From the NCBI RefSeq assembly GCF_006864135.1, contig NZ_SADV01000008.1:62001-126000 (forward strand): a stretch of DNA of 64,000 bases. Direction: 5' to 3'. Made by a program: the position numbers and the translations under genes. The notes under the pieces are model-generated. The model was not told the origin of the DNA and ran no database searches. It was given only the letters and a program-made list of their open reading frames with translations. Source of the DNA: Lysinibacillus sphaericus (GTDB taxonomy: Bacteria > Bacillota > Bacilli > Bacillales_A > Planococcaceae). Shown in pieces: positions 7,793 to 57,290 of the stretch (positions within the stretch are counted from its first letter, which is position 1; each line of letters begins with the position of its first letter).

Positions 7793-7805
7793 TGTCGCTG
7801 CCCCC

Positions 7806-8182: not shown

Positions 8183-8197
8183 ATGAAATCGCTTTCT
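8183..8197. promoter_or_regulatory. cre-like catabolite-repression site
   Basis: ATGAAATCGCTTTCT fits the CcpA consensus WTGNAANCGNWNNCW at every fixed position. It lies just downstream of the predicted -10 box of the PTS operon, a position where CcpA would block initiation or elongation. It is assigned from consensus only. Confidence 0.55.
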
Positions 8198-8204
8198 TAT
8201 GATG

Positions 8205-8233: not shown

Positions 8234-8408
8234 TATACTTTTTACACCATTTATTCCCTTATAGAAAGACTTTAAAAATTGGGCTATAACTCTGTTACAG
8301 ACTACAGAATGGATTCACCTTACTGGTATAGTCCAGAAAAAAGTTCAAAAAAATTTAATTTTTCAGAACCAACTACATTCATACCTACTTTTTCAATATA
8401 TACACGAC

Positions 8409-9584
8409 TTAAAAGTATTCATAGAATGCGGGTTTATTAGAGGGTAACGCTTGCTGCCAGCGATCAATAATGTCTTCAGCCAATTCTTCATTTGCATACA
8501 AGGCAGCATCCTTTACAGAAAGATAGCCCACCATCATCGCTGAAAAAAGATTAATTGGTAATGTTAACATATGCACTTTTGGGCTAGAATTTGTCTCAAT
8601 TATCGAGACATCTCCACTTTTATTTATTTTATATGCGTGCTCATTCCAGCTACAAAATATATCTTCAATTTGAATATATAACGGCTCCTGAATATCGCCC
8701 CACGGATAATGTTGCATGAACATCAAAGCATCTACTATTCTTACCATCACATCCTGAACGACTTCCTTTTTAAACTGTGGTTCTTTAAAATAAAAGCCAA
8801 ATTGATGGTTGTTTGAAGTAACTCCTTTAATGTTACTCACACTCGCTGCATGAGACGTTATAAAACGCCAAATCGCTTGTTCTGCTAGTAAATCCTCAGC
8901 TATAAAATCATGAATCTCAAACGTTCCATCTTGAATGATATAGCGAATATAACCTGCAATACTATCATCCTTAAAATATGCCGCAAAATGACTATCAGGC
9001 ATCCTTCTCTCTATTCTTTTCCACCAAGCATCATCTCGTAACATACTTCCATTATTGAACAACGCCTGTGCATTATGAAAATCTTTAATCGCCTGAAAAA
9101 GATCACGATCTGGCCACTCAAAGCTCATACGTTTTACTACGTCCAGCTGCTTTCCGAAAGAAGGAAACAGCATTTGCGGAATGGTGTAACATAGCTTTTC
9201 AACAAATAACTCCCAGCCGAAGTAACGATAAAAGGATACCGAAAATGGTGCTAACACAGATATGCTCTGCCCATTCTCTCGCATTTTCTTCAGGGCCTCT
9301 GTCATAAGCTTTTTGATAATACCTTGTTGCCGATACTCAGGATATGTTGCAACAAAACCAATTCCGCCCATCTTATAATTTTCACCATGAATTGTTATAT
9401 TTAGTGGCAATATGAATAACTGTCCAACTACTTTATTTTCATCGTAAGCACCCAATGTTGTACTATGCTCAATCCAATAGTGAAAATCATCGCGCCGCGC
9501 ACCCGTATACTTATTAGGAAAACAATAATCTCTTAATTGATGTATTTGTAAATAATCATTTGGCGGTATTATTGTTATTTCCAT
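8409..9584 (-). CDS. GNAT acetyltransferase, Eis-like with C-terminal sterol-carrier-like domain
   Basis: A 391-aa protein with the Eis-type layout. An N-terminal GNAT domain (about 1-150) carries the acetyl-CoA segment FVATYPEYRQQGIIKKLM, with the Q/RxxGxG-like QQGI. A second GNAT-like domain follows, then a C-terminal SCP2-like domain from about 290. The family acetylates amines or lysines; the substrate is unknown. AGGGGTGATC precedes the ATG. It is cytosolic, with no membrane segment. It lies between the PTS operon and ptsI on the same strand, but 273 bases with the PTS promoter separate it from the IIB gene, so the PTS operon is transcribed independently. A role in amino-sugar metabolism is possible but unsupported. 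Confidence 0.78.
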   Translation of the reverse strand: MEITIIPPNDYLQIHQLRDYCFPNKYTGARRDDFHYWIEHSTTLGAYDENKVVGQLFILPLNITIHGENYKMGGIGFVATYPEYRQQGIIKKLMTEALKKMRENGQSISVLAPFSVSFYRYFGWELFVEKLCYTIPQMLFPSFGKQLDVVKRMSFEWPDRDLFQAIKDFHNAQALFNNGSMLRDDAWWKRIERRMPDSHFAAYFKDDSIAGYIRYIIQDGTFEIHDFIAEDLLAEQAIWRFITSHAASVSNIKGVTSNNHQFGFYFKEPQFKKEVVQDVMVRIVDALMFMQHYPWGDIQEPLYIQIEDIFCSWNEHAYKINKSGDVSIIETNSSPKVHMLTLPINLFSAMMVGYLSVKDAALYANEELAEDIIDRWQQALPSNKPAFYEYF

Positions 9585-9625: not shown

Positions 9626-11344
9626 TCAAGATAAACTTAATAGATTATTTTTGACATATTCCTCGACCTCTGAGGCCGTAGATAGTTGTAAAATGCGCTC
9701 ATTATGTGGTGTTAGCTGATGTTTGGAAAGCTTAGCGAGATGTGCACGAGTCTTTAATATAGAGGAAGCACTCATGGAAAACTCATTTAATCCAAATCCT
9801 AGTAAAATCGGTAACGCTATTTCATCTGCTGCCATTTCACCACACATACCTACCCATTTTCCATGATGCTGTGCTGCATCAATGACATTTTTTATCAGTC
9901 TTAAAACAGCAGGATGATACGGTTGATATAAATAAGAAACATTTTCGTTCATGCGATCTGCTGCTAACGTGTATTGGATTAAATCATTTGTACCGATTGA
10001 GAAAAAATCTACTTCCTTTGCAAATACATCTGCAATGATGGCTGCCGATGGAATTTCAATCATCATTCCTACTTCTAACTTTTCAGATATAAGGTATCCA
10101 TCACTCTTCAAACTTTGTTGTTCTTCAAGCAATATTGCCTTCGCCATTTTAAATTCGTCCAATGTAGCAATCATCGGAAACATAATTTTTAAATTGCCGT
10201 AAGCGCTTGCTTTTAGTAATGCACGAATCTGTACACGAAATATTTCTTGTTGAGTTAAACTAATCCGAATTGCACGATAGCCAAGAAATGGGTTCATCTC
10301 ATCAGCAAGCTTTAAATATGGTAGATTTTTATCGCCACCAATATCTAATGTCCGAACAATCGTTGGCTTGCCTTGCATTTTCTCTAGTACACTTTTATAT
10401 GCTTGAAACTGCTCCTCCTCAGTTGGTAGCTCCTGACGTTCCATATATAAAAACTCTGTTCGAAACAGGCCGATACCATCTCCGCAAGCATTGATGACCA
10501 TATCCGCATCTTCAGGGTTTCCTATATTCCCTGCAATTTCTACTGAAAAACCATCTGCACTCAAACTTGGTAATGAACGATAGCGAAGAAGTTCTTCATT
10601 CTCCTCATTGTGTAAATTCTGTTGCTGCAAATAAAAGCTAGTTATTTCCGATGAAGCGTTGACAAAAATCTTGCCATTTGTCCCATCTAAAATAATTGGT
10701 GCTCCATGTTGAATACGTTCCGTGGCATTTTTCGTCCCAACTACCGCTGGAATCTCTAACGTTCGTGCGAGAATAGCAGAATGAGATGTTTTGCCACCAT
10801 TATCCGTTATAAACCCTTTGACATACGTTGTATCTAGCATCGCAGTCATGGACGGTGTTAAGTCTTTAGCAACGATAATAACATCAGAGGTTAAACGATT
10901 CATATCAACCATTTCAACCCCTAACAAATGGGTTAATACCCGTTTAGATACATCTCGAATATCTGCAACTCGCTCCTGCATATAGACATTATCAAGCCCT
11001 TCAAACATTGCAATGAACAAATTCGATACTTCGTTTAATGCAAATTCGGCATTCACCCCAGATTGAATTTTCGCTTCAATAGATGAAAGCATTTCAGGAT
11101 CTTCTAGCACTAATAGATGTGCCGCAAAAATAGCCGCCTTGTCAGCACCGAATTTCTCTTGCGCTATTTCATGGATTTCTTGTAGCTCCACTTTCGTTTT
11201 TACAATAGCTGCCTTAAATCTTTCTAGTTCAGCATGGACATCAGTAATCTTAACTTTTTCAAAAGTTAGATCTGGTTCCTTTAAACAATATGCATTTGCA
11301 AAGGCAATGCCTCGAGAAACAGCAATTCCTTGTATTTCTAACAT
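9626..11344 (-). CDS. ptsI: PTS Enzyme I
   Basis: The 572-aa cytosolic phosphoenolpyruvate-protein phosphotransferase that phosphorylates HPr. The N-terminal swivelling domain carries the active histidine at residue 188 in GGKTSHSAILART. The C-terminal PEP-utiliser barrel includes GIGLFRTEFLYM, the metal-binding MIEIPSAA segment and GMCGEMA. The length is normal. The ATG overlaps the last codons of ptsH by 7 bases, so the two genes are translationally coupled. A ptsHI pair inside an amino-sugar cluster suggests that this is the main or only sugar class the organism takes up by PTS (inference). Confidence 0.95.
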   Translation of the reverse strand: MLEIQGIAVSRGIAFANAYCLKEPDLTFEKVKITDVHAELERFKAAIVKTKVELQEIHEIAQEKFGADKAAIFAAHLLVLEDPEMLSSIEAKIQSGVNAEFALNEVSNLFIAMFEGLDNVYMQERVADIRDVSKRVLTHLLGVEMVDMNRLTSDVIIVAKDLTPSMTAMLDTTYVKGFITDNGGKTSHSAILARTLEIPAVVGTKNATERIQHGAPIILDGTNGKIFVNASSEITSFYLQQQNLHNEENEELLRYRSLPSLSADGFSVEIAGNIGNPEDADMVINACGDGIGLFRTEFLYMERQELPTEEEQFQAYKSVLEKMQGKPTIVRTLDIGGDKNLPYLKLADEMNPFLGYRAIRISLTQQEIFRVQIRALLKASAYGNLKIMFPMIATLDEFKMAKAILLEEQQSLKSDGYLISEKLEVGMMIEIPSAAIIADVFAKEVDFFSIGTNDLIQYTLAADRMNENVSYLYQPYHPAVLRLIKNVIDAAQHHGKWVGMCGEMAADEIALPILLGFGLNEFSMSASSILKTRAHLAKLSKHQLTPHNERILQLSTASEVEEYVKNNLLSLS

Positions 11345-14845: not shown

Positions 14846-15050
14846 TGACGAATCCCGATTGTGCCGTTATGCCAAGAAACATTCGTCTTGAACCCGCAAT
14901 TCGCAGGGGGGTGCCCGCTTTGCAGCTTTAAACGTCCCGCTCCGCGTGGGGCTTGTTTGCGACTACAAAATGAAGGCTCCCGTTTCTAATGTGTTCGGTC
15001 AAAACTGTTAAGTAGAGCTAGCAATTAGACAAACACATCAGGATTCGTAT
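14846..15050 (-). ncRNA. ssrS: 6S RNA
   Basis: The ends pair as the closing stem: ACGAATCC at the 5' side (minus strand 15048-15041) with GGATTCGT at the 3' side (14855-14848). The sequence just inside the 5' end, CCTGATGTGTTTG, followed by TTTTGACCGAACA, resembles Bacillus 6S-1 (bsrA), and the 3' half is GC-rich and hairpin-forming. The length of about 200 nt fits. It also has the Bacillus position, directly downstream of aspS on the same strand. It would fold into a mimic of an open promoter and bind sigma-A RNA polymerase in stationary phase. It has its own promoter and terminator. Confidence 0.85.
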
Positions 15051-18547: not shown

Positions 18548-18834
18548 CAAAAAAAGCCCTCGCCTCCTTGCGTTTTGCAAGGGACGAGAGCTGTACAAGC
18601 TTCCGCGGTTCCACCCTAGTTGACGCATCAAATTCATGCGTCCTCCTCCTAATCGGATAACGGCCGATTCCGTTTTTTCCTACTAAGCATTACTGTTCAG
18701 AAAAAAGCCTCTCAAGTGTTATTCACAATATACATTTTTGTAGGAAAGATTTCAGCCTAGGTCTTTCCCTCTCTTCTCCAATAGAGGTATATGCTACTTG
18801 CTTGGTCATAAGCGGTTAATCATTTTTTGATTAC
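18548..18834 (-). promoter_or_regulatory. T-box riboswitch leader of hisS
   Basis: The minus strand carries the T-box motif AGGGTGGAACCGCGG (18617-18603), preceded by a stem with GACGCATG/CATGCGTC-like arms. It is followed by a terminator whose stem (18556-18591) ends in a run of seven T. Uncharged tRNA would pair with the T-box bulge, stabilise the antiterminator and switch on hisS. The specifier (His or Asp) could not be placed with confidence by eye. Confidence 0.9.
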
Positions 18835-28715: not shown

Positions 28716-28958
28716 TCATTTTAAATCGTCAATTAAACTAATGTATTCTTGTACTGCATTATCTGTACTTAAAAATGTGGTTGCTATCATATAATTAAGC
28801 TCCTTTATTAATCGAATTAATCCCGATAGTTTTATAAGTTGGCATGGATTTTCATAAAGTGAGAAGCTTCCTACTTCTGATAGCAACTCAACTATTGTCG
28901 CGTCTCCTAAACCAGGAACTGAAAACAGTATTTCATATTCAATTGTTATTTGTGCCAT
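28716..28958 (-). pseudogene. IS110-family transposase remnant
   Basis: The minus-strand frame contains VPGLGDATIVELLSEVG and YENPCQLIKLSGL. This is the signature of the C-terminal (transposase_20) domain of IS110/IS116/IS902 transposases, around the conserved 'PGIG' helix-hairpin-helix. Only about 50 residues match, followed by unrelated or deleted sequence, and the N-terminal DEDD domain is absent. It lies between the MarR gene and the RiPP-like cluster and is evidence of past mobile-element activity there. Confidence 0.7.
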
Positions 28959-29242: not shown

Positions 29243-29704
29243 CTAGTTTTCACCTTCGAAAATTGGCTCCAAGTAATACTGCGGGTATGCCTCCATTAAG
29301 TTCAAGAGAAATCTATTTTCTGTAACGAATGTTATTTCATGACGATGTGTATTATTTTTGATCCACGCTATTGTATTATGTACATTAAGAGTACTCACTG
29401 ATTTTTTTAAAGTATTATCAGAAAGGTTACTTTCTAAAATATCTTTATTTGATAAAATGCTATTGAATAAGGTACTCTTACCTCCATTAGGCGTGTAATG
29501 ATTAGAGTTAAATAGTGCTTTTGATTTTACTCCAGCTTTACCTACTTTTAAAAATATTGAGTCAATCTCAAAAATATAAATACCAACAGCACCATTTGGG
29601 AGAGAATTAGGATTATGTGGTGCAGGTAAGTGAGAATAAGAAAAATCGTTAATAGATAAGCTAAACTTTCTACAGAACTCGGTTAAAAAACGAAAAGTAA
29701 ACAT
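29243..29704 (-). CDS. GIY-YIG-like protein, 153 aa
   Basis: A 153-aa protein. The segment GAVGIYIFEIDSIFLKVGKA (about 38-57) resembles the paired 'GIY' and 'YIG/KIG' strands of GIY-YIG nucleases. A possible catalytic Glu lies in NLMEAYPQYY near residue 138. The match is by eye and moderate, and the central region is unusually polar. No strong ribosome binding site precedes the ATG. It is codirectional with the RiPP-like cluster but separated from it by a terminator, so it is probably not part of that operon. Alternatives are a defence-type nuclease or a decayed gene. Confidence 0.5.
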   Translation of the reverse strand: MFTFRFLTEFCRKFSLSINDFSYSHLPAPHNPNSLPNGAVGIYIFEIDSIFLKVGKAGVKSKALFNSNHYTPNGGKSTLFNSILSNKDILESNLSDNTLKKSVSTLNVHNTIAWIKNNTHRHEITFVTENRFLLNLMEAYPQYYLEPIFEGEN

Positions 29705-29800: not shown

Positions 29801-30070
29801 TTAAATATTTTTAATGGCTTTTTTTTCATATAAAAATTCAACGAATTGGATTATCTCTTCTTTGTGAGAACCTTCTTCTATGAAATATTCCGCCTCTATC
29901 TGTTCTATGACTTGACCTAAATTCTTGTTTCCATCAATCAATTCCCAAATATTGTTAGCTGTATCATTTAGTTCGAACGCAGCCCCATCGCCAAATAATA
30001 CATTTTTTTTTGAAATATTTCTAACTCTAAAATTCAAATTCTGCTTGAACACAATATCTTCTGTAAACAT
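29801..30070 (-). CDS. stand-alone PqqD-like RiPP recognition protein
   Basis: An 89-aa protein matching the PqqD/RRE pattern. N-terminal strands (VFKQNLNFRVRNI) are followed by the FELNDTANNIWELIDG signature at about 31-46, then helices ending in VEFLYEKKAI. Such proteins bind the leader of a ribosomally made peptide and hand it to modifying enzymes; the lasso B1 protein is one example. The ATG directly follows the nucleotidyltransferase stop (TAAATG) with GGGGGG 7-8 bases upstream, so the two are translationally coupled. It is the last gene of the set headed by the putative precursor at 34319-34396. Confidence 0.8.
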   Translation of the reverse strand: MFTEDIVFKQNLNFRVRNISKKNVLFGDGAAFELNDTANNIWELIDGNKNLGQVIEQIEAEYFIEEGSHKEEIIQFVEFLYEKKAIKNI

Positions 30071-30898
30071 TTACATACCCCCCAAATTTTTTCCTGCTTT
30101 ATTAACAACATTATTTATGAAATATAAACAATCTTCTATTTTTTTTTCATAAGTTAAATCTGTGTCACCACCAAAATATAATTCATTAAATTGCATTAAT
30201 ATTTTTTGGGATTCATTATCTAAATCACTATGTTTTTTTAAAAGTGTATAAGCCCATTTTTCTCTGTCCAATGAAATTTTCCTACTATATAGATAGACTG
30301 AAACGGCCGTAATAAGTGTATTTTTAGCAAGTATAAGACTTGTTTCTTGTTCACCTTTAATTAGATTACCCATTATATCATCATACGTATTATCAATCGT
30401 ATTAATATAGCATCTTGCCATTAATCTAAAATAGTTATCCATATTAATTTCTGCTTTATATTCGCCATACATATGCTCATTGTAAATTGGTTCACTTACA
30501 ATAAACCTATGTAAAAATGAAGATAAATGCTCAAAGTCAGTACCATCTATTGATAATAGGTTTAATGTTCTTTTTGTAGAATCACTAAAATCTATTGAGT
30601 TAAGCTGTTTTAACAATGAATTAACAGTAGAAAGTGACCAATATTCTATGTCACAACCTATGCCCTCAATGTCTTCAAAGGATATCTTTAAAGCATTATG
30701 GTCATAAACAATACTTGGATCACTCTTCAACCTCTCAAAATCATTTACAACTACGAATACATCCAAATCTGATTTTGTATTTCCAATCCCTTGTATAAGT
30801 GATCCGCTCAAAAATACAAAGTCATTTGAACAAAAATTAACCTTTTCTAAAATCTTTTCTTTAGCAATTTTTTTAGATATTGGCAATAGTTCTATCAT
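30071..30898 (-). CDS. pol-beta-type nucleotidyltransferase
   Basis: A 275-aa protein with the minimal nucleotidyltransferase motif GSLIQGIGNTKSDLDVFVV (32-50). G32-S33 and the metal ligands D44 and D46 are intact, and a third carboxylate may be D63 or E64 in the CDIEYW region. A helical C-terminal half (about 135-275) resembles substrate domains of this superfamily. It could transfer a nucleotide to the peptide or to a small molecule. Nucleotidyltransferases are known as tailoring genes in some Firmicutes lasso clusters, but this one is not clearly of that type. AAAGGGG precedes the ATG. It is coupled to the PqqD-like gene. Confidence 0.75.
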   Translation of the reverse strand: MIELLPISKKIAKEKILEKVNFCSNDFVFLSGSLIQGIGNTKSDLDVFVVVNDFERLKSDPSIVYDHNALKISFEDIEGIGCDIEYWSLSTVNSLLKQLNSIDFSDSTKRTLNLLSIDGTDFEHLSSFLHRFIVSEPIYNEHMYGEYKAEINMDNYFRLMARCYINTIDNTYDDIMGNLIKGEQETSLILAKNTLITAVSVYLYSRKISLDREKWAYTLLKKHSDLDNESQKILMQFNELYFGGDTDLTYEKKIEDCLYFINNVVNKAGKNLGGM

Positions 30899-30911
30899 TA
30901 TTTTTCCCCTT

Positions 30912-31700
30912 TCAATAAATATCTAGGGTTGCTTTTTCCCTAGACTTCTTATCAGTGTATCGTAATAATAGATAACCCAAAATCATATATATTAGACCTA
31001 TTAATAATTCTTTAGCAAGCAAATCGATGACTTGATTAGAGAAGTTTCCATTTACAATCATTTTAGAAGCCTCTATACCTCTTGTTAATGGTAAAAAATA
31101 AGGAATGCCAGAAAGAGCTGTTGGAAGATTATTCAACGGGAATAATGCACCAGTAAAAATCATTAATACAAAAACACTAGTATTTAATACTAAATTAACA
31201 TCACTTGTAATAAGCCCAGCACTACTTATAAATAAACCAATTCCCATTGCAGAGAACATTGCAATTACTATACAAAGAATTAAAAGTGGGAAATTGGTGT
31301 TTTCAAAATTCAAATCAAACAAAAGATAACCAGCTATTAAACCTATAGCTACTGTAATTGTAGCATCAAAAATATGGATGAAAGCTCTACCTATTAATAT
31401 TAAAAAATTATTTGTAGGCGAAATCATAAGTAAGCTGAGTGTTCCAAAACTTCTCTCGCTAACCAGTACAGCTCCTACTCCAAATAATGAATTATACATA
31501 CTAAGAATAAAGCAATTCCCCAAAACCCAAGGTGTAAGATCCTGAGAATCATTTACATAACTCGCTAAAAGAACGAAAAAAATGAGCTGCATAATTGGGG
31601 TAACTATTTTTACTAAAATATAAATCTTAGGATCTAAGAATCCATATAATGATTTATATGAAAGTATTGACTGGTGAAGGAATCTGCTTATCGAACTCAT
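30912..31700 (-). CDS. ABC-2 type permease (second subunit)
   Basis: A 262-aa membrane protein with six predicted segments and the ABC-2 pattern: an N-terminal cytoplasmic helix, GTLSLLMISPTNNFLIL in the first cytoplasmic loop, and a final LTRGIEASKMIVNG loop before the last helix. It pairs with the preceding permease and the ATPase to form an exporter, probably for the modified peptide or as self-immunity. It starts next to the stop of the other permease. Confidence 0.85.
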   Translation of the reverse strand: MSSISRFLHQSILSYKSLYGFLDPKIYILVKIVTPIMQLIFFVLLASYVNDSQDLTPWVLGNCFILSMYNSLFGVGAVLVSERSFGTLSLLMISPTNNFLILIGRAFIHIFDATITVAIGLIAGYLLFDLNFENTNFPLLILCIVIAMFSAMGIGLFISSAGLITSDVNLVLNTSVFVLMIFTGALFPLNNLPTALSGIPYFLPLTRGIEASKMIVNGNFSNQVIDLLAKELLIGLIYMILGYLLLRYTDKKSREKATLDIY

Positions 31701-32486
31701 TTAATGTACCCCCAAAGTACCTTTTATTCTAGTTTGATTGTTAATTTTTTTAAATAAAATGATTCCAATTAATAAATTTATTAAACTAATAATTAGAATC
31801 CAAAACATATACGATGAAAATTCCGAATAATCATTAATTCCTATCATGCTTGTTCTTAATAATTTCACTGCCCAGGTCGGAACTAATATATACGAAAAAT
31901 ATTGAATGAAATTCGGTAAAATAGATACAGGAAAAATCACTCCACATAATATGTAGACTGGATATTCCATTGAATTCATTAACATTCTTGCGTTCCTAGA
32001 AAGTGTAAATATTGACGCTAGTAACATTGAAATGATAGAAAAAGAAATTAATACTACAATAAATGATATTAAAAATTCTAACGGATGCTTAATTGATATT
32101 TTTATTCCAAATAAAATCACTAGGAATAATACATTTAAAACCATTGATAATACTCCAAAAAACACATTTCCTAAGACTTTTCCTAAAAATATCAAACGAA
32201 AATCACTTGGAGTTGCAGTAATAGTTTCTAATGTACCCATATATCGCTCTCTTTCAATATCTCCAGCAGATGAAAAGAGTATCGAACTCCATAAATTCAT
32301 GATTCCAGTTCCTATAACAATATACTCTCCAACATTTATCTCTTTTGATTCCTTGAACATAAAATAAAACAAAGTAGAATATAAGATAGGTTGCAATATA
32401 ATAATAAATCTGAAGGTTGGACGTGTGAAAGACTGCTTCATTTGTAATACTAGACTTGATATTATTATTTGTAATATTTTTGACAT
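31701..32486 (-). CDS. ABC-2 type permease (first subunit)
   Basis: A 261-aa protein with six predicted membrane segments and the ABC-2 loop ERERYMGTLETITATPSDF. The ATG at 32486 (MSKILQ) is preferred because GGTGAT lies 6 bases upstream, although an in-frame start four codons earlier overlaps the ATPase stop. Two different permease subunits suggest a heterodimeric DrrA/B-like or multidrug-type exporter. Confidence 0.85.
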   Translation of the reverse strand: MSKILQIIISSLVLQMKQSFTRPTFRFIIILQPILYSTLFYFMFKESKEINVGEYIVIGTGIMNLWSSILFSSAGDIERERYMGTLETITATPSDFRLIFLGKVLGNVFFGVLSMVLNVLFLVILFGIKISIKHPLEFLISFIVVLISFSIISMLLASIFTLSRNARMLMNSMEYPVYILCGVIFPVSILPNFIQYFSYILVPTWAVKLLRTSMIGINDYSEFSSYMFWILIISLINLLIGIILFKKINNQTRIKGTLGVH

Positions 32487-32497
32487 TTTAATCACCA

Positions 32498-33463
32498 TTA
32501 CCTTATATACTCCAGGTAAACATCCTCTAAAGTAGGCAATCTTATTGTCATGTTAGTAATCACTTGTTCACCTAAGATGTCTACAATATTAGATATTACT
32601 TTGTAAGGAAATAAACTGTGTATTTCAATTTTTGTTGCATCGACTAATTCAGTTAGTATTACTTCTTTCACGGAATTTAAGGATTTTATCTTATCAACTT
32701 CCACTTGTTTAACTTCGTTTACAGCCAGCTCTATTATTGGTGTCTTATTGAGGTTTATTTTCAAATTCTCTGGTGTATCTAAGGCTAGACACCTGCCCTT
32801 GTTTATAATAGCTATCCTGTCACATAATTCATCAGCTTCCTGCATATAGTGAGTTGTTAAAATTATTGTTTTTCCATCTCTAGAAAGAGTTTTAATAATA
32901 TCCCTTAATTCTCGAGCACCTACAGGGTCTAAACCAATTGTTGGTTCATCCAGAAATAAAATTTCTGGTTCATTAATTAGCCCTCTAGCTATTTGTAGCC
33001 TTTGTTTCATTCCTTTTGAAAAAGTTTCAACTCTTTCGTCAGCCCGTTCGGATAAACCAACTAAATCCAACAGTTTATCTATACGCTCTTTTTTTATTTT
33101 ATTATCAATTTTATAAAGATCTGCAAAATAACTTAGATTTTCTCTTGCTGTAATTCTCCAATATAAATTTCTTTCTCCCCCATAAATAAAGTTGATTCGA
33201 GGTCTAATAAAACTTTCCTCTCCAAAAGGACTATGTCCTAAAACCTTTACCTCACCGGAACTAGGAGCCAACAAAGTAGTAAGAATTTTAATTGTAGTAG
33301 TCTTGCCTGCACCATTTGGTCCCAGTATTCCAAATACCTCCCCTTTTTTCACAGAAAAGGAGAGAGAATTAATAGCTTTAGTAAACTTTTTTTTCGAGTT
33401 CAATAAACCTACTTTAGTTTCAAAATCTCTTGTTAAGTTTTTAACCTCAATGATATTAGACAT
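32498..33463 (-). CDS. ABC transporter ATPase
   Basis: A 321-aa nucleotide-binding subunit. Walker A is GPNGAGKT (about 49-56). The signature is the non-canonical FSKGMKQRL usual in ABC-2 drug exporters, and Walker B is ILFLDEPTIGLDP with a following H-loop TTHYMQEADELCDR. A C-terminal 80-residue extension is typical of DrrA-like subunits. The ATG at 33463 has GGGAGAG 6 bases upstream. It energises the two permeases that follow. Confidence 0.92.
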   Translation of the reverse strand: MSNIIEVKNLTRDFETKVGLLNSKKKFTKAINSLSFSVKKGEVFGILGPNGAGKTTTIKILTTLLAPSSGEVKVLGHSPFGEESFIRPRINFIYGGERNLYWRITARENLSYFADLYKIDNKIKKERIDKLLDLVGLSERADERVETFSKGMKQRLQIARGLINEPEILFLDEPTIGLDPVGARELRDIIKTLSRDGKTIILTTHYMQEADELCDRIAIINKGRCLALDTPENLKINLNKTPIIELAVNEVKQVEVDKIKSLNSVKEVILTELVDATKIEIHSLFPYKVISNIVDILGEQVITNMTIRLPTLEDVYLEYIR

Positions 33464-33475
33464 TTCCATCTCTCC

Positions 33476-34204
33476 CTAGTCTTTTGAATCTCTATTAATA
33501 ATACAAATACTCTTAATACTCTGAATTACATGAGTTGAATTATAGGTTAAGTGAGCAATTATTGAGGGAATTATCGACCCTGAAAATAGAAAAAGAAATG
33601 AAGAGAATACTCCAAATACAATTTGAATAACAAAATCAGGTTGGCTAAAATTATTAGACCATTTTGTTGCATAATGTGAAAGCATAAACAAATATGAACT
33701 AATAAGTACATTTATTATTAAGATAAGGATGGAATTTTGTTTATTTAATACAAAATATCTAAAGAATAATTCTTCAGAAATTGCGCCACCAATAAAAGTA
33801 TATATATTCATCATATGTTGAAATTTATTACCTGAAAGTGTTAACTGTATGTAATCATTTGATAACACCAATCTCCAAACGGATATTTTAGGTATTATAA
33901 AGAGCAAACCTAGAATAAACCCCAATAAATACCACCAAATAGACAGGATTGTAAACGAAAAATCCCAAATAATTAAAAAAGGAACCATCAGTGGTAAGAT
34001 ATACATACTTCTTCTTATAAAAGTAATTAGCGCTCTCTCGTTTTCAGCATAGATTCTTTTTGCATTTCCGACACATAAAAAAGTAAATACCCAGAAAAAT
34101 AAAATCAATAAATAATAGGAGTCAATAAAGTAGGCAAACATAGAAAGTAATAATACGGTTCCCCACAACACGTTCTCCTTTTTATTCAACACTAAATCAT
34201 CCAT
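33476..34204 (-). CDS. CPBP-family intramembrane protease
   Basis: A 242-aa protein with about seven membrane segments. It carries the three motifs of the Rce1/CPBP (type II CAAX protease) family: EELFFR (E144, E145, R149), H177 in LSHYATKW and HLTYN (H218, N222). In peptide clusters these proteins commonly trim leaders or give immunity. Here it is first in the exporter set, 30 bases before the precursor terminator, and lies next to the peptide gene, so removal of the leader is a reasonable guess. The ribosome binding site is weak (AAAGGATG, about 15 bases upstream). Confidence 0.8.
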   Translation of the reverse strand: MDDLVLNKKENVLWGTVLLLSMFAYFIDSYYLLILFFWVFTFLCVGNAKRIYAENERALITFIRRSMYILPLMVPFLIIWDFSFTILSIWWYLLGFILGLLFIIPKISVWRLVLSNDYIQLTLSGNKFQHMMNIYTFIGGAISEELFFRYFVLNKQNSILILIINVLISSYLFMLSHYATKWSNNFSQPDFVIQIVFGVFSSFLFLFSGSIIPSIIAHLTYNSTHVIQSIKSICIINRDSKD

Positions 34205-34233
34205 ATATTATATTTTCATCCTTTAACTAGTAA

Positions 34234-34276
34234 AAAGTTAGAGTAGAGCTCAAAAATTGCGCTATACTCTAACTTT
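34234..34276 (-). terminator. terminator/attenuator between peptide gene and export genes
   Basis: AAAGTTAGAGTA (34234-34245) and TACTCTAACTTT (34265-34276) are perfect 12-bp arms, with a further AGC/GCT pairing inside. On the minus strand TTTT follows. Placed right after the short peptide gene, it would make most transcripts end there and give the peptide a higher dose than the processing genes. Confidence 0.85.
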
Positions 34277-34303
34277 CCTTTTTTAAAAATGTGGTTGTTA
34301 ACT

Positions 34304-34331
34304 ACTAGTTACTAGTTACTAGTTACTAGTT
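34304..34331. repeat. four tandem ACTAGTT heptamers over the peptide stop codon
   Basis: ACTAGTT repeats four times without change (34304-34331) and continues ACT. The minus-strand peptide gene ends inside the array (ACT AGT AAC TAG). Because the unit reads stops in all three frames, changes in copy number hardly alter the peptide. Confidence 0.9.
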
Positions 34332-34396
34332 ACTTCCAATGCAAGTGCAGATGGTAATTTAATTTCAACTGCTTTAGGCGCTGTATACTTTTTCAT
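34319..34396 (-). CDS. putative RiPP precursor peptide, 25 aa
   Basis: ATG at 34396 with a perfect GGAGGTG ribosome binding site 6 bases upstream, behind a good promoter. It reads MKKYTAPKAVEIKLPSALAL followed by EVTSN and a TAG stop. The start (KKYxxPxxxEI) resembles the YxxP leader motif that lasso-type B1/PqqD proteins bind, and such a protein is encoded downstream. If residues 1-12 or so are leader, the core would be short and hydrophobic and end in Asn. There is no Cys and only one Glu after the leader, so lanthionine, sactionine and Cys-heterocycle chemistry are excluded. No homologue is recognised. It is a strong candidate from structure and context, not proof. Confidence 0.72.
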   Translation of the reverse strand: MKKYTAPKAVEIKLPSALALEVTSN

Positions 34397-34425
34397 GTTC
34401 TCACCTCCACAAACGGTATATACAA

Positions 34426-34454
34426 AGAATAACTTTTTTTCATATATTTGTAAA
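34426..34454 (-). promoter_or_regulatory. promoter of the peptide gene
   Basis: Minus-strand -35 TTTACA (34449-34454) and -10 TATTCT (34426-34431), spacer 17. Initiation near 34419 would leave a leader of about 23 bases with the GGAGGTG site. Confidence 0.65.
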
Positions 34455-34523
34455 TACATATTTTCATTTTTTTGAAAAATCACTCTAATTAGACAACTAA
34501 TATTTACAAATAAGTTTTAAAGT

Positions 34524-34534
34524 GTTAGTCTAAC
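34524..34534. promoter_or_regulatory. small dyad in the divergent promoter region
   Basis: GTTAG-T-CTAAC is a perfect dyad 36 bases before the plus-strand start at 34570. It is a candidate operator or -10-proximal site for the divergent set; no regulator gene is obvious in the cluster. Confidence 0.35.
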
Positions 34535-34569
34535 TGTAATAAATTAGCAAATTTGAGAGGAGAAGTCAT

Positions 34570-35523
34570 ATGAACAAAGATGTTAGTTTTATTCTATTGT
34601 CTCCGGATGCAGTAAAGCAAGATTTAATTTTCTTTATATTGGAAGAATTGGAAAAATTCGATATCCTCCCTTTAAGGATAAAATATTTAAATATTAAATT
34701 ACCTATATTAGAGAAATTATATGGACATCAAATTAACAAAATGACGCCGAATTGGTGGCTAGTTGAAAAGTTATTTACATTAGATAGGAGTGCAGCGCTA
34801 TTACTTAAAGATAATTCTCCTGAAGAAAGGGATTTGAGTGAATTTTTAACAAAAATAAAAGGTGTTTCTGATCCATCAAATCTCTCTAATAGTTCTTTAA
34901 GAGGAAAATTTAATGCTGAAAATAGAGTAATTAACTTAATACATACACCAGATGATGTTAATAAATGTTCAAGTGAAATTACTAACTTTTTTTCTAAACA
35001 GGAACTAAATATTGAAATATATAACAATGATGTTTCATCGTTTTTAAAGCTCGAATTATTACGAGAACAAATTGAATCGTACAAGCTTTTGGATTTCTAT
35101 TTAACACTTTCTCGTTTGAAAAGAAGAATATTATTTTTAATAATGCAAGATGAATTTAAAGACTATCACCATTTATTAATGACAACATTCCTAGAAGAGA
35201 CTGAACTCTATAAATCTGTATTAAAGAAAGACAATAGAATTAGACTAACACCCAAAGTAGACAAGATATTAGTAACTCAAAAAAGTTATATTGATTTTAT
35301 AGTAGATACACATCCTTTAAGCGATCTATTAAAAAAATTACTTTTATTACCCTACTCTCTCAAAATAAATATATATGAAGAATTTGATAAGAATAAGTAT
35401 GAATTTGGAGCTTTTATGACGGAATGGGAAATGTTGACTATTCAGAGTGCTGTTGCACTTCCAATAGAAATTATATTCGGAGGTAAAAACCATGAAATTA
35501 CGAAAAACGAAGAATTTTGTTGA
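34570..35523 (+). CDS. nucleoside-diphosphate-kinase-like protein with extra C-terminal domain
   Basis: A 317-aa protein. Residues 1-142 follow the NDK fold: an opening LLSPDAVKQDLIFFIL, LRGKFN near 110-114 and the active-site histidine segment INLIHTPDD with H125. The N-terminal lysine of the NDK 'KPDA' motif is replaced by serine (SPDA), and the Kpn-loop region differs, so normal NDK activity is doubtful. Residues about 145-317 are a helical domain I do not recognise. AGAGGAG precedes the ATG. The gene overlaps the next one by 32 bases, so translation is coupled. It could be a repurposed phosphotransferase acting in the peptide or small-molecule pathway. Confidence 0.7.
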   Translation: MNKDVSFILLSPDAVKQDLIFFILEELEKFDILPLRIKYLNIKLPILEKLYGHQINKMTPNWWLVEKLFTLDRSAALLLKDNSPEERDLSEFLTKIKGVSDPSNLSNSSLRGKFNAENRVINLIHTPDDVNKCSSEITNFFSKQELNIEIYNNDVSSFLKLELLREQIESYKLLDFYLTLSRLKRRILFLIMQDEFKDYHHLLMTTFLEETELYKSVLKKDNRIRLTPKVDKILVTQKSYIDFIVDTHPLSDLLKKLLLLPYSLKINIYEEFDKNKYEFGAFMTEWEMLTIQSAVALPIEIIFGGKNHEITKNEEFC

Positions 35524-36205
35524 TTTAAAAATTGATTACGTAATCAAACTAGGTGGGAGTCTAATAGCAAATATAGATGAAGCTCAAAATTTAGCTAAAA
35601 CATTAATTAAAATTAGTGAGAACAATAGAATAGTTATTTTCCCTGGGGGTGGACCTATTGACAATCTTATAGAAAAAATAGATAAACAGTTTACATTAAA
35701 TGAAATTACACATCACCAAGCATGTGCACGAGCTCAAGATCAAACTGGGTTAATATTTGCCAATTTTAATCTAGATTTTTTTGAAACAACTGATAACTTT
35801 TCAGGTATAAGAGATATTCTTGATAGGGGGAAAATCCCGGTATTACTTCCTTCAAAATTAATTTTTATGCTAGATCCATTTGAAAAGAGTTGGAGTATAT
35901 CCTCCGATTCAATGGGCGCATACTTTTCATTTTTATTAGAGGCTAAAAAGTTTTTGATTTTGACAGATGTTGATGGGATTTATAATAAAGATCCTAATCA
36001 AAATATAGACTCAAAATTACTCTCTAGAATATCTGTTAAAAGTTTAAATAGTTTAGGTCATACTTCAGTAGATGAAACTCTTAGTAGTTTTTTATTAAAT
36101 GCAGAAATGTGTTGTTGGGTTTTGAATGGTTATAATTACAACAATCTCATAGATTTCTTTAATCAAAAAGATAATGCGATATGTACGGAGATTTCTTACA
36201 ATTGA
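35492..36205 (+). CDS. amino-acid-kinase-fold protein (MfnE-like)
   Basis: A 237-aa AAK-superfamily protein. It has KLGGSL at 19-24, PGGGPIDNL at 51-59, and later WSISSDSMGAYFSFLL and ILTDVDGIYNKDP nucleotide-site segments. The layout and the HHQACARAQDQTG segment recall the MfnE/uridylate-kinase-like branch rather than aspartate or glutamate kinase. It should phosphorylate a phosphate, carboxylate or phosphonate group; the substrate is unknown. GGAGG 9 bases upstream supports the start inside the NDK-like gene. Confidence 0.75.
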   Translation: MKLRKTKNFVDLKIDYVIKLGGSLIANIDEAQNLAKTLIKISENNRIVIFPGGGPIDNLIEKIDKQFTLNEITHHQACARAQDQTGLIFANFNLDFFETTDNFSGIRDILDRGKIPVLLPSKLIFMLDPFEKSWSISSDSMGAYFSFLLEAKKFLILTDVDGIYNKDPNQNIDSKLLSRISVKSLNSLGHTSVDETLSSFLLNAEMCCWVLNGYNYNNLIDFFNQKDNAICTEISYN

Positions 36206-36225
36206 TATGAATGGTGGGAATTAAA

Positions 36226-37527
36226 ATGGCTTTAAAATTCCTAATGGAAAATATAAACGAAGAACTATTGAAATTAAATACACATTTTTTTAATCCAACA
36301 GAAGATGTTGTTATGGTTAATGGGAAAGGTATCTACCTTTATGATGAAAAAGGTAGAGAATATATTGATTGTGCAGCTGGCACATTTAACTTAAGTTTAG
36401 GTTACAGCCATCCAGATATTTTAGAAGCTGTTAGAAAACAAGCTGAAAATTTAATTCATGTCACGTCAAGTTACATGACTGAACCAGTAGCTAGACTCGT
36501 TGAAAAATTAGTCGAAATTACCCCACAAAGCTTAACAAAAATCCATTTAAAGGTATCTGGGGGATCCACAGCAAATGAAGGTGCAATTAAAATGGCCCAA
36601 AATTATAATGGCAAGAATGGAGTAATATCACTATTTAGATCACATGTAGGGCAAACTATATATACAATGAATGCCTCTGGGTTATCTTTTAGAAGGGAAC
36701 CATTTCAAGGCTTATTATCTACTGGGATTACTCACGTCCCTCCCGCATATTGTTACAGATGTTTTTATAATCAGCATCCAGATACATGTGGTATGCAGTG
36801 TGTTGATCGTATAAATGACTTCATTGATTATGCAAGTACTGGTAATATTTCAGCAATGATTGTGGAACCGATACTAGGAAATGGAGATAACATAGTTCCT
36901 CCTATGGACTATTTTAAAAAATTAAGGAAATTGGCTGATGAGAGGAATTTTGCACTTATATTTGATGAAATTCAAACTGGCATAGGTCGTACCGGACATA
37001 TGTTTGCAGCTGATTATTACTGTGTTGAGCCAGATATAATGACAATAGCAAAAGGATTAGGGGGATCTGGATTTCAAATTGCAGCAATAGCTGCAAAGCC
37101 AGAATATTCAAATATGGATGGGCATCATCACTCTTTTACTTATGGTTCTAATGTGCTGGCCTCTGCAGCTGCTTTAAAAACAATAGAGATTATTAACACA
37201 CCCCTTTTTTTAGCAAATATAAAAGAAACGGGTAACTATATTGTTTCATACCTCAAACGTTTACAAGAAAAATATCCGTTTATTGGCGATGTTAGAGGTG
37301 TAGGTTTAATGATTGGATTTGAAATAGTAAATGAAAAGGGTGAACCTGACACAACCTTAACTAACCAGATTAAAAAGCATGCTTTTTATAACGGATTGTT
37401 AATGAGAACATCTAGATATGGCTTTGGAAATGTAATAAAAATAAGGCCTGCCCTTACGTTAACCTTACAAGAAGCAGAAGAAATATGTTCGCGTTTAGAA
37501 AAGACATTTGAAACAACAATGAGATGA
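36226..37527 (+). CDS. class III (PLP) aminotransferase with four-cysteine insert
   Basis: A 433-aa fold-type I aminotransferase. It has SGGSTANEGAIKMA (111-124, PLP phosphate site), IFDEIQTGIGRTG with D247, and the Schiff-base lysine K276 in IAKGLGG. The family moves an amino group between an omega-amine or amino acid and a keto acid. At 175-192 it has YCYRC...TCGMQC (C176, C179, C188, C192), a CxxC-x8-CxxxC pattern that could hold zinc; a similar Cys insert occurs in some relatives. The ATG at 36226 has GGTGGG 7 bases upstream. It is 20 bases after the kinase gene, in one operon. Confidence 0.88.
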   Translation: MALKFLMENINEELLKLNTHFFNPTEDVVMVNGKGIYLYDEKGREYIDCAAGTFNLSLGYSHPDILEAVRKQAENLIHVTSSYMTEPVARLVEKLVEITPQSLTKIHLKVSGGSTANEGAIKMAQNYNGKNGVISLFRSHVGQTIYTMNASGLSFRREPFQGLLSTGITHVPPAYCYRCFYNQHPDTCGMQCVDRINDFIDYASTGNISAMIVEPILGNGDNIVPPMDYFKKLRKLADERNFALIFDEIQTGIGRTGHMFAADYYCVEPDIMTIAKGLGGSGFQIAAIAAKPEYSNMDGHHHSFTYGSNVLASAAALKTIEIINTPLFLANIKETGNYIVSYLKRLQEKYPFIGDVRGVGLMIGFEIVNEKGEPDTTLTNQIKKHAFYNGLLMRTSRYGFGNVIKIRPALTLTLQEAEEICSRLEKTFETTMR

Positions 37528-37617
37528 CTTTTAACTCTTAAATCAGATAACTTTAAAAATAAAGTAATGATATCAAAAAAGAGTGATAAAAATTCGTTTA
37601 TAAAGTGAGTGATAAAT

Positions 37618-38277
37618 GTGATACATGCAATCATTTTTGATTTTGATGGCACTATCGTTGATACTGAATCACTATGGTTCCAAGTATTTAAAGAGATCCT
37701 TGAGCATGAGTATAAAATTGAACTTCCGTTACAAAAGTTTGCAAAATGTATTGGTACGACAGACGATGCTTTATTTGAGTATATTCAAGGTCAATCCACT
37801 GAAAAATTTAATCATGATGAATTCATGCTAAAAGCGAAAAAAAAGATGCAATCCTTAAAGAAAACTCTAGTTCTTAGAGAAGGCGTTCATGACTTAATTT
37901 GTGAAATAAAAAGCTTAGGGTTAAAGCTAGGAATTGCATCTAGTTCAAGCCGTTTATGGGTCGAAGAATTTTTAATAATATTCAATCTACATCATCTATT
38001 CGATGTCATTAAGACAAGTGAGGACGTTCAAAAAGTAAAACCAGATCCGTCCTTGTACACTAGTGTGGTTGAGACTTTAGGCATTAATCCAAATGAAGCA
38101 ATAGCAATCGAGGATTCCGTTAATGGTTCATTATCAGCTATACGGGCTGGGATAAAATGTATAGTCATTCCTAACCAAGTAACAAATTTCTTAACTTTTC
38201 CTGAAGAAGTAATACGTTTTGATGATTTCTTTCATCTAAATATCAAGAGCTTGGTAGAGCATTCAAAATCTAATTAA
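37618..38277 (+). CDS. HAD-superfamily phosphatase
   Basis: A 219-aa subfamily IA HAD enzyme, similar in layout to beta-phosphoglucomutase-like and YhcW-type proteins. It has the nucleophile motif IFDFDGTIVDTE, an alpha-helical cap, motif II IASSSSR, the motif III lysine in KVKPDPSLY and motif IV AIEDSVNG. It would remove a phosphate from a small molecule. The start is GTG at 37618 with GTGAG 8 bases upstream (a GTG at 37609 is the alternative). It lies 90 bases after the aminotransferase and is last in the plus-strand set, possibly dephosphorylating a product of the kinase-like enzymes. Confidence 0.82.
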   Translation: MIHAIIFDFDGTIVDTESLWFQVFKEILEHEYKIELPLQKFAKCIGTTDDALFEYIQGQSTEKFNHDEFMLKAKKKMQSLKKTLVLREGVHDLICEIKSLGLKLGIASSSSRLWVEEFLIIFNLHHLFDVIKTSEDVQKVKPDPSLYTSVVETLGINPNEAIAIEDSVNGSLSAIRAGIKCIVIPNQVTNFLTFPEEVIRFDDFFHLNIKSLVEHSKSN

Positions 38278-38569: not shown

Positions 38570-38780
38570 TTTGTCGTACAGATAAAACATTTGTTGCTGT
38601 CGCTTCGCTTTCGCACAGAGCAAAGCTTCCTGTTGGCGTCCGATGAGCCGCTTCACTCGCGGTGCTCGCGGCAGGGTGTCGGGCCAACAGATGTTTTTTG
38701 CGCGAAAGCGTAGTGCAACGTAGCGACAGCAGCACGATGTTGGTCACGAAGGCGTTATCATAGGACGTGATGTGATGGTT
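38570..38780. repeat. dispersed intergenic repeat block with inverted halves
   Basis: TTGTTGCTGTCGCTTCGCTT near 38590-38609, GAGCAAAGCTTCC...GGCGTCCGATGAG (to about 38647), and then the inverted module GCGCGAAAGCGTAGTGCAAC near 38700-38719. Stretches such as GCCGCTTCACTCGCGGTGC are short palindromes. The 686-base gap 38278-38963 holds this block, one terminator and no plausible gene. Confidence 0.75.
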
Positions 38781-38963
38781 TTAGCCTTCGTTCCACTAAT
38801 CACTGATCCCCAATGAGTCGCCCATTCCCCACTACAATCAACTTTTCCGCTTAGCATTTATCTTCTGACATGTTACTCTATTTCATAGTGAAAATATGTA
38901 GCAATATGAGCAAATATATATTCATAAATCTATTCTGTTTGATTATAGGATAAAAAGTAACAG

Positions 38964-49096: not shown

Positions 49097-49572
49097 GTCC
49101 TCTGCAAAAAGGATTTTTCCTAATTGCAGAGGACGATCAAGACCGCGTTGCCACCTCATATTAGAGCATATTTGCTCTCCCTTATGTGCTCAACCTTAGT
49201 TCGTCAATAAAATTGACATACCTTTTTCATTAATGGCAAAAAGATTTGTCTAAGTCGAAGCACCCCCTATAACGTGGGGAATCCGTTCGCTATAATCAAT
49301 TCCGCCTTGGCGTAATTACATCCAGAGGCATTCATTTCGTTCAGTAGATGTTTGTAAACCCACTGGATGAAAATAATTAGCGACTCTCATAAGTCCATTC
49401 ACATAAGCTACAAATCAGTTCGCACCATCCACTGACTCTCTAAATTGCCCACTTATGCTACTACTCTTATTCAACAATTTCTCAGCTATTCTCATCTAAA
49501 CTCAGCTCATCTGTTCTAAGGCTGACCTCGCTCCCGAGACCAACTACCTTGTATCGAACAAAAAAGTTAGCC
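49097..49572 (-). promoter_or_regulatory. T-box riboswitch leader of the trp operon
   Basis: The T-box motif AGGTGGCAACGCGGTC is on the minus strand at 49156-49141. The terminator stem is GTCCTCTGC (49097-49105) with GCAGAGGAC (49126-49134), and T-runs follow. Stem I elements AGAGAGTCAGTGG and GGTGCGAAC lie near 49447-49420. TGG at 49397-49395, followed by A, sits where the specifier is expected and fits tRNA-Trp. The gap between stem I and the antiterminator is unusually long because it contains a repeat (49298-49369). Confidence 0.88.
49298..49369. repeat. REP-like palindrome and hairpin inside the trp T-box leader
   Basis: AATTCCGCCTTGGCGTAATT (49298-49317) matches the palindrome family at 2312, 3576 and 57014. 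It is followed by CATCCAG (49319-49325) and CTGGATG (49363-49369), which can pair. It lies between stem I and the T-box. Confidence 0.75.
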
Positions 49573-57013: not shown

Positions 57014-57290
57014 AATTTCGCCTTGGCGCAATTGCGTCCGAATTTTGAATTGTGCAGGCACAATTCATTCCTTTGAAAATCCGTGACATCCGCCGTAGGC
57101 TTTAGACCAACGTGATGTTGGTCACTCAGTCGGTGTTACTGTCACTGTCGCACAAATAACTTGCCACAAGACGTGGCGTTCTTAGACTGAGTTCCTCTAT
57201 TTCAGTAGGTTTTTGGCATGCCCACGGAAAAGGAATCTCTACCCTATTCATCTCATTTTAAGATGCGGAAATTTTCTACTGAAAGAAGAT
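57014..57290. repeat. dispersed intergenic repeat block
   Basis: Contains AATTTCGCCTTGGCGCAATT (57014-57033), ATCCGTGACATCCGCCGTAG with GCTTTAG, ACCAACGTGATGTTGGTCAC (an internal palindrome) and CACTGTCGCACAAATAAC. No gene is plausible in this gap. Confidence 0.75.

Follow-up and report, generated by a model that had tools for sequence, protein, structure and literature searches.

A conserved RiPP-like cassette of YxxP peptide, PqqD-like protein and nucleotidyltransferase in Lysinibacillus sphaericus

What product is made by a cluster in which a very short peptide gene stands beside a PqqD-like protein, a nucleotidyltransferase (NTase) and two kinases? This question was raised by positions 29801–38277 of a stretch of Lysinibacillus sphaericus DNA (64,000 nucleotides, hereafter the window; the source genome is 5.12 Mb). 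On the minus strand, the order of transcription was peptide gene, hairpin with T run, CPBP protease, ATP-binding cassette (ABC) ATPase, two ABC-2 permeases, NTase and PqqD; divergent from this operon were a nucleoside diphosphate kinase (NDK)-like gene, an amino-acid-kinase-fold gene, a class III pyridoxal phosphate (PLP) aminotransferase (these three are called the trio below) and a HAD phosphatase. A first-pass annotation had given these genes and coordinates correctly, as judged by open reading frame (ORF) calls and Pfam, and the terminator that it had placed behind the peptide gene was borne out by a strong hairpin (Table 1). It had also read the locus as a cluster for a ribosomally synthesized and post-translationally modified peptide (RiPP) outside the recognised classes, and this held for the classes tested. 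Ten window genes were scored against Pfam (with the cut-off of each model) and NCBIfam; as the annotation had claimed, none exceeded the cut-off for lasso B2 or C, radical SAM, Lan or YcaO families.

The conclusion that the cassette and its peptide family constitute a RiPP-like system outside the classes tested is well supported by their recurrence. The window NTase matched 2 of 261 genomes in its family (its own and G647); a profile search produced 8 matches, its own included, among 398 genomes of the class, and 5 matches, of which 2 were already known, among 100 genomes of the genus of G903. Together, the NTase searches led to 11 plasmid records and 11 genomes besides the source. All of the genomes and 10 of the records were taken in (a second R. 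leguminosarum record was left out), while the G837 contig and an Exiguobacterium plasmid were counted as one locus. This gave 20 distinct NTase loci besides the window: 13 with PqqD and 7 in which no PqqD was seen (L039/L057, L043, L044, L046, L047, L062 and L063; the unannotated L047 entered the motif scan only). PqqD was assigned by Pfam in the window, L034, L058, L059 and L061, by record annotation in L038, L040, L042 and L045, and by eye in L041, L060, L069, L070 and L071, with an additional alignment for L041 and L060.

The whole window order, from peptide to PqqD, recurred in L059 and L070. The order in L059 was established by Pfam for CPBP, PqqD and NDK, by BLASTP for the NTase and one permease, and otherwise by eye; L070 was read by eye throughout. 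Identity between the window and L059 was 48% for the NTase, 39% for PqqD, 42% for CPBP and 51% for the first permease. A CPBP protease was seen in 11 of 14 loci (by Pfam or annotation in the window, L034, L038, L041, L042, L059 and L061; by eye in L058, L069, L070 and L071), and not in L040, L045 or L060. The NTase adjoined PqqD, or had only the peptide between, in the window, L038, L040, L042, L058, L059, L061, L069, L070 and L071. The earlier suggestion of PqqD, CPBP and exporter as a unit, with the NTase central, was upheld.

All 14 loci with PqqD and NTase, which ranged from Bacillota to Streptomyces, encoded a peptide of 18–26 residues in which an invariant YxxP lies close to the N terminus. 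Its ribosome-binding site (RBS) was strong throughout and read AAAGGAGGTGAT in five loci. One half of the test that the first-pass annotation had set itself, conservation of a short peptide gene at this place, thus came out in its favour. The peptides included MKKYTKPKAVKVQIPAALTHEA in L059, MKKYNKPKATEIKIPAALMHEQ in L070, MYKAPKLKSVKLLAGMENA in L058, MKKAYRKPEATKAEFGAIMAWPG in L042 and MRKYTKPTAKTISQGTVLRDNA in L045, while G647 (L034) combined a related NTase, PqqD and CPBP with the tandem peptides MKKSYVKPSAKKVTCPQAILAHVVAS and MKKMYVKPTAKKVNCPQAIIAHVKF. The L071 peptide, MNKPYKKPKLKKVTAPAASQKL behind AGGAGGTG, was found by reading and misses the strict motif described below. L058 also held a second, longer YxxP peptide candidate, MKEYKKPKLILVKKINDIKYEKPLLKQTKMPVATMLI, ahead of its second NTase (10953–11066, minus strand).

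The strict motif (M[KRQ]{0,2}x?YxxP, 18–30 aa, plus an RBS-like stretch) was shaped on the window, L034, L038 and L042; the peptides of L040, L041, L045, L058, L059, L060 and L061 came from a first, looser scan. Applied to these 11 loci, with the window entered as 20 kb, it gave 12 matches, at least one in each and always at the assigned peptide. There were no matches in the 8 NTase loci where PqqD was not seen (among them Acinetobacter L028, found via its kinase) or in 30 other loci (231 kb, leaving out loci under 2 kb and short loci overlapping NTase loci), and first-order Markov shuffles of the 11 loci (n = 10) gave 0, 1, 2 or 3 matches each. The motif without the RBS filter was much less specific, with 28, 1 and 3 matches in the three sets of loci and 7–15 per shuffle. 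Two later test loci, L069 and L070, matched where expected. The strict motif fitted 13 of the 14 loci, the exception being L071, where the sole strict match with an RBS (7991–8071) was antisense to another gene and false. Most peptide cores kept a hydrophobic stretch. Of the 10 loci folded (all but L040, L041, L045 and L069), 8 had a strong hairpin (z from -2.7 to -5.8) behind the peptide, L071 and L042 being the exceptions; this would be expected of a precursor that is expressed at a high level and whose transcript partly reads through into the operon.

The window NTase is predicted to have the aminoglycoside nucleotidyltransferase fold. Its structure model (predicted local distance difference test, pLDDT, 94.4) comprised a Pol-beta palm with GS..DxD plus a helical C-terminal domain, and the best solved matches by Foldseek were ANT(4')/kanamycin NTase (1kny, 6p06). 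The Foldseek and VIA-align lists cover a part of the NTase families, and only matches present in them were used. Residues G32, S33, D44 and D46 were invariant across 38 aligned NTases (of 44 sequences found, six were left out); close NTase relatives came from Bacillus mycoides, Paenibacillus dendritiformis, Viridibacillus arvi and Sutcliffiella horikoshii. The match to Pfam NTP_transf_2 was 19.7 bits, under the cut-off of 21. The likeness to aminoglycoside and kanamycin nucleotidyltransferases lies in the predicted fold and this motif, whereas identity to them was only 13–16% and the neighbourhood is one of peptide biosynthesis. Membership of an MntA/HEPN toxin-antitoxin or defence system was rejected, the NTase having no PADLOC match at E 1e-3 and scoring 14.6 against 60 for NF047752; for the cluster as a whole, PADLOC gave merely a weak HAD match.

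Beyond the cassette, the loci differed in what may be called payload genes, among which nucleotide enzymes recurred. Mono- or diphosphate kinase families exceeded their Pfam cut-offs in 9 of 14 loci (the window, L034, L040, L042, L058, L059, L061, L069 and L071). In L034, a thymidylate kinase was accompanied by two OMP-decarboxylase-family proteins, a class V aminotransferase and AroM, with pyrC/pyrD/pyrK-like ORFs (by eye) as neighbours. L058 contained two genes each for thymidylate synthase and thymidylate kinase, three for PqqD proteins, NUDIX, CYTH, a PLP decarboxylase and the second NTase, and L061 a PurH fragment, an inositol-monophosphatase-family protein, a thymidylate kinase and a phosphoribosyltransferase match under the cut-off. 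In L059, PqqD was followed after 54 bases by an NDK in the same orientation, and the locus also held a methyltransferase, two radical SAM proteins (one under the cut-off) and two HAD proteins; L040 had an NDK, phosphotransferases and AsnB; the Corynebacterium locus L042 a thymidylate kinase, a 2OG oxygenase, a plasmid-borne tryptophanyl-tRNA synthetase (TrpRS) and a GNAT; and L071 a thymidylate kinase and U32. L038 combined myo-inositol-phosphate synthase and methionine adenosyltransferase (annotation) with a split DegT-like aminotransferase (by eye), an SDR and an AAA_18 P-loop protein. In L069, Ni_insertion (LarC, 475 bits) occurred with an AIRC protein, a PP-loop protein, a thymidylate kinase and PfkB; the AIRC and PP-loop proteins are read as LarB and LarE, so that genes of nickel-pincer nucleotide synthesis appear to adjoin a RiPP-like cassette there (6710–9403, minus strand).

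The same theme appeared in several NTase loci where PqqD was not seen: L043 (Agrobacterium) with pyrF, dTMP kinase, dihydroorotate dehydrogenase and a class III aminotransferase (annotation), L062 with GTP cyclohydrolase I, a PTPS/QueD-type protein and an NDK, L044 with an NDK, and L039 with deoxynucleoside kinase and alanyl-tRNA synthetase (AlaRS) genes (annotation) and an S66 LD-carboxypeptidase. In L046 (Rhizobium leguminosarum plasmid) the NTase relative lay in a phosphonate cluster that also had aepX, aepY and asnB as well as a cytidylyltransferase, and L063 looked unrelated. The TrpRS and GNAT genes of L042, and the AlaRS and S66 genes of L039, resemble immunity genes.

Kinases of the nucleoside monophosphate type, NDKs and a Pol-beta NTase would make sense together if a payload were raised to a triphosphate, R-PPP, and its R-P moved to the peptide. 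The system would consist of a very short precursor (a YxxP leader and a core of about 8–12 residues), a leader-binding PqqD protein acting as a RiPP recognition element (RRE), the NTase, the CPBP protease and an exporter of the ABC-2 or MFS type. Payload enzymes would first make a small phosphorylated molecule, R-P, to which the class III PLP enzyme of the window would add an amino group or set a stereocentre. A mono-to-diphosphate kinase (MfnE-like in the window, of thymidylate-kinase types elsewhere) would produce R-PP, and an NDK (a specialised second copy in the window, a cluster or housekeeping NDK elsewhere) would produce R-PPP. The PqqD-guided NTase would then move R-P onto the peptide core with loss of pyrophosphate, after which CPBP would remove the leader, the ABC-2 exporter secrete the conjugate and the HAD protein trim phosphates. 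We infer these steps, along with leader binding, the identity of R and a role as a Trojan-horse antibiotic like microcin C, from the genes; the nucleotide genes, the additional tRNA synthetases and the GNAT and S66 proteins speak for such a role. That the kinases supply a triphosphate whose R-P is moved by the NTase to a peptide bound by PqqD, so that unrelated enzymes arrive at an analogue of microcin C, seems about evenly balanced between right and wrong. A wider version, in which every cluster makes an unusual nucleotide or nucleotide-like R of its own, which dedicated kinases take to the triphosphate and the ANT-fold NTase attaches to a PqqD-held peptide of about 20 residues, is more tentative. 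Such 'peptidyl-R-phosphates' with exchangeable payload would be a second, independently evolved solution to the microcin C Trojan horse and would probably act on several aminoacyl-tRNA synthetases or nucleotide enzymes; as part of that same tentative reading, R could be a modified pyrimidine, purine, pyridinium mononucleotide, aminocyclitol or amino-polyol.

Among the closest known systems, microcin C-like peptidyl-nucleotides are alike in having a very short ribosomal precursor, a nucleotidyltransferase, an exporter and a nucleotide-type payload, which is suspected in the cluster described here. In microcin C, MccB moves AMP or CMP, and producers are protected by a GNAT (MccE2) and an L,D-carboxypeptidase (MccF) (PMC9239234); near some NTase relatives there are likewise immunity-like genes for a GNAT, an LD-carboxypeptidase and a tRNA synthetase. 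Unlike microcin C, the window cluster uses a stand-alone PqqD, an ANT-fold NTase and a CPBP protease. The cassette family also has kinases and nucleobase pathways, which are not known from mcc clusters. Membership tests covered the ten window genes, among which no ThiF-like MccB family was found. Lasso peptides tailored by a kinase and a nucleotidyltransferase (paeninodin; pseudomycoidin, with PsmK/PsmN) share a PqqD-like B1 protein and a nucleotidyltransferase; according to PMC9266682, a nucleotidyltransferase homologue decorates a phosphorylated peptide, and PsmN may likewise move a nucleotide moiety. The window peptide, by contrast, bore no sign of a lasso core, neither a B2 transglutaminase-like peptidase nor a C asparagine-synthetase-like cyclase was found among the ten genes, and the window PqqD fell short of the lasso B1 models (NF033536, 33.4 bits against 80; NF033530, 13.8 against 70). 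Lasso leaders are likewise of the YxxP type. Daptides, too, are RRE-guided RiPPs, and their clusters include ABC exporters and a class III aminotransferase, PF00202 (PMC10036551); here, however, that aminotransferase was not seen in the 13 other cassette loci, oxidative decarboxylase, alcohol dehydrogenase and methyltransferase were absent among the ten genes, and the peptide ends in Asn rather than Thr. The window PqqD was also rejected as the equivalog of PQQ biosynthesis (TIGR03859, 38.8 bits against 46). Two features of an RRE-dependent RiPP were found, namely a conserved short precursor gene (14 of 14 loci) and a PqqD/RRE protein, which presumably binds the leader. No recognised description of this gene combination was found in the open-licence literature.

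A number of observations weigh against the proposed conjugate. Related NTases occurred without a seen PqqD in L039, L043, L044, L046, L062 and L063, and the AlaRS/S66 immunity evidence of L039, which has neither a seen PqqD nor a YxxP peptide, concerns an NTase relative only. Peptide-to-NTase distance ranged from 27 to 5565 bases, and the peptides of L040 (4994) and L041 (5565) are the weakest cases. In L040 and L045 the peptide lay directly ahead of an asparagine-synthetase gene, such that amide chemistry may be involved as well, and the C-terminal residue of the peptides varied. Five of the 14 loci had no clear mono- or diphosphate kinase: in L041 the match was 20.5 against a cut-off of 27, in L038 the sole candidate was the AAA_18 P-loop protein, and the ORF lists and annotation of the L045, L060 and L070 stretches showed none. 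The window NDK-like protein kept the His in 'NLIHTPD' (where NDKs carry 'NVIHGSD') and had a long conserved C-terminal extension, with Ser ahead of 'PDAV' at a position where canonical NDKs carry Lys; because of this Ser its activity is not certain. The trio was present in L023 and L025, and a kinase-NDK pair in L031, with no cassette seen. Lastly, the product is predicted from genes, and the NTase could modify a small molecule, for self-protection, instead of the peptide.

This last point can be put as an alternative: the NTase would be a self-resistance enzyme, reversibly nucleotidylating the finished (aminated) antibiotic within the producer, with HAD or CPBP activating it on export and the peptide being modified in another way. 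The nearest matches to its predicted fold are antibiotic-modifying enzymes, the aminoglycoside and lincosamide nucleotidyltransferases, and amine-making enzymes occur in the clusters (the class III aminotransferase in the window; DegT, by eye, in L038). However, the NTase stood beside PqqD, or with the peptide alone between, in 10 loci whatever the payload genes, and mono- and diphosphate kinases and NDKs would have no obvious role; we regard this explanation as unlikely.

The trio loci bear on a further alternative, that the cassette and a divergent small-molecule cluster (NDK, MfnE-like kinase, aminotransferase and HAD), which would have its own product, are unrelated neighbours. For the 13 other PqqD+NTase loci, a reading of ORF lists and annotation, rather than a search, showed neither an amino-acid-kinase-fold kinase nor a class III aminotransferase, and no PqqD-like ORF was seen in L023 or L025 (ORF lists, by eye). 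A PqqD search of G593, G543, G647, the L025 genome and two plasmid records returned the window's own only; it missed the real PqqD of G647 and is weak. Against this alternative stand the NDK genes beside the cassette in L059 and in L040, payload genes that differ by locus, as expected of system parts, and the nucleotidyltransferase that also precedes the trio in L023 and L025 (PF14907 in L023). We consider mere adjacency decidedly unlikely. The other half of the first-pass test, on whether the two gene sets occur independently, went partly against its reading, given the trio in L023 and L025; the NDK theme is shared. Its proposal was that the kinases, aminotransferase and NTase carry out or supply the modification; since the trio occurs without a seen cassette and the peptide cassette with other enzymes, the trio is more likely a variable supplier of payload than the defining chemistry.

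The trio itself was rare. Besides itself, the NDK-like protein had 5 relatives among 5.8 billion proteins, and within the family relatives occurred in 2 other genomes of 261, one a fragment. A search of the phylum matched 45 of 398 genomes, where matches other than the window's were 22–37% identical and mostly to the NDK domain; in the source genome the gene is the second NDK, beside a normal copy. Relatives of the kinase at E 1e-15 were present in 2 of 398 class genomes, its own included. Its nearest model was MfnE, by name a phosphate kinase (NF040622, 156 bits against a cut-off of 300), to which it is related without being the same, so that it was rejected as the methanofuran kinase equivalog; the solved match was 7qrh. 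For the aminotransferase, the two best solved relatives were racemases, and it may act as an amino-acid racemase. In 4 of 5 cases the contigs of NDK-like and kinase relatives matched in size (2323, 32851, 6053 and 8436), which suggests that the two genes travel as a pair. An origin of the trio in phages or plasmids was rejected, since no NDK-like relative was found in viral contigs (pattern-based scan) or plasmids (tblastn).

The partners of the trio varied. In L023 and L025 the nucleotidyltransferase preceded the kinase pair and aminotransferase, and in L023 the genes after the trio encoded a large uncharacterised protein and an MFS exporter. Roseibium L031 had the kinase-NDK pair with DegT and class III aminotransferases, a GMC oxidoreductase, a GNAT and MFS, and Acinetobacter L028 had kinase, NDK, a thymidylate-kinase-family protein, an aminotransferase and two D-Ala-D-Ala-ligase-type enzymes together. 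The nucleotidyltransferases of L028 and L023 gave no significant BLASTP alignment with the window NTase (E 0.02 and 0.24) and so are analogues only. No YxxP peptide with an RBS was found in L023 or L025 (L025 had one match without an RBS), and short ORFs upstream of the nucleotidyltransferase gene there looked unrelated. From these contexts the trio, or else just its pair of kinases, appears to be a payload module that can act with other partners; in the window it is likely linked to the peptide, with less certainty than the cassette. The large L023 protein (769 aa, 4471–6780, minus strand) had a caspase-like H...C look by eye and no Pfam family over the cut-off. The trio seemed to be decaying in L025 (Virgibacillus LDC-1, 4816–6006), where the aminotransferase ended early near a transposase-like ORF (by eye), and in L024 (G543, 8391–9095), where the kinase ORF was intact and NDK was a 41-residue tail match only.

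It is very improbable that the peptide is instead a removable scaffold, on which a small molecule is built and then cut off for peptide-free export in the manner of pearlin or LysW-type carrier pathways. Cores that are very short and little conserved, payload genes that differ between loci, the CPBP protease and amino-acid-kinase-fold and class III aminotransferase enzymes resembling LysW-carrier chemistry would suit it, but no ligase loading an amino acid onto the peptide was found among the ten window genes, and most cores keep their hydrophobic stretch.

Coordinates are collected in Table 1. The NDK-like and kinase genes overlap by 32 bases, and the HAD phosphatase gene starts 81 bases past the aminotransferase gene. 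The hairpin behind the peptide gene was seen by folding and was not picked up by a simple terminator scan. Left of the cluster, an ORF resembling an IS110-type transposase tail (28716–28958, minus strand; by eye) is a hint of past mobility, and downstream of PqqD lay a 153-aa ORF with a GIY-YIG-like start (29243–29704, minus strand; by eye) and no PADLOC match. Matches to Bacillaceae-1 sRNA were present at 38729–38800, adjoining the right side of the cluster, and at 57107–57201 (minus strand); T-box leaders occurred at 18577–18818 and 49126–49483 (minus strand) and 6S RNA at 14848–15047 (minus strand).

Table 1. Positions of cluster features in the window, with strand and basis of assignment
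Feature	Position	Strand	Basis or remark
PqqD-like stand-alone RRE protein	29801..30070	-	PF05402, Pfam 43.4 bits against cut-off 23.4
Pol-beta NTase with HEPN-like helical domain; predicted ANT/kanamycin-NTase fold	30071..30898	-	GS...D44xD46
ABC-2 permease 2	30912..31700	-	Pfam
ABC-2 permease 1	31701..32498	-	Pfam; 51% identity with L059 permease
ABC exporter ATPase	32498..33469	-	DrrA-like, under the cut-off of that model (Pfam, NCBIfam)
CPBP (Rce1-like) intramembrane protease	33476..34204	-	Pfam 53.9 bits
Hairpin and T run, terminator/attenuator between peptide and operon	about 34233..34277	-	Folding, z -4.9 and -4.1
Precursor peptide gene MKKYTAPKAVEIKLPSALALEVTSN	34319..34396	-	25 codons; YxxP leader, short C-terminal core
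RBS of peptide gene, GGAGG	34404..34408	-	Sequence; ends 7 bases upstream of ATG
NDK-like kinase with C-terminal extension	34570..35523	+	Pfam 41.6 bits; second NDK match of the genome
Amino-acid-kinase-fold kinase (AA_kinase)	35492..36205	+	Nearest MfnE model
Class III PLP aminotransferase (Aminotran_3) / racemase-like enzyme	36211..37527	+	Pfam
HAD phosphatase	37609..38277	+	Pfam; 35% identical HAD gene in L059 locus

If the proposed conjugate is correct, these clusters would make peptide natural products of a new class, and would do so without any of the enzymes known for such attachment. It would be a RiPP class with a simple genomic signature, a YxxP 20-mer with PqqD, an ANT-fold NTase and CPBP/exporter, which was found in Bacillota and Actinomycetota and whose payload genes point to unusual nucleotides. 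Nucleotidyltransferases of the antibiotic-resistance type would gain a possible biosynthetic relative, with a bearing on their origin, and natural-product research would gain a candidate Trojan-horse family with predictable payload chemistry.

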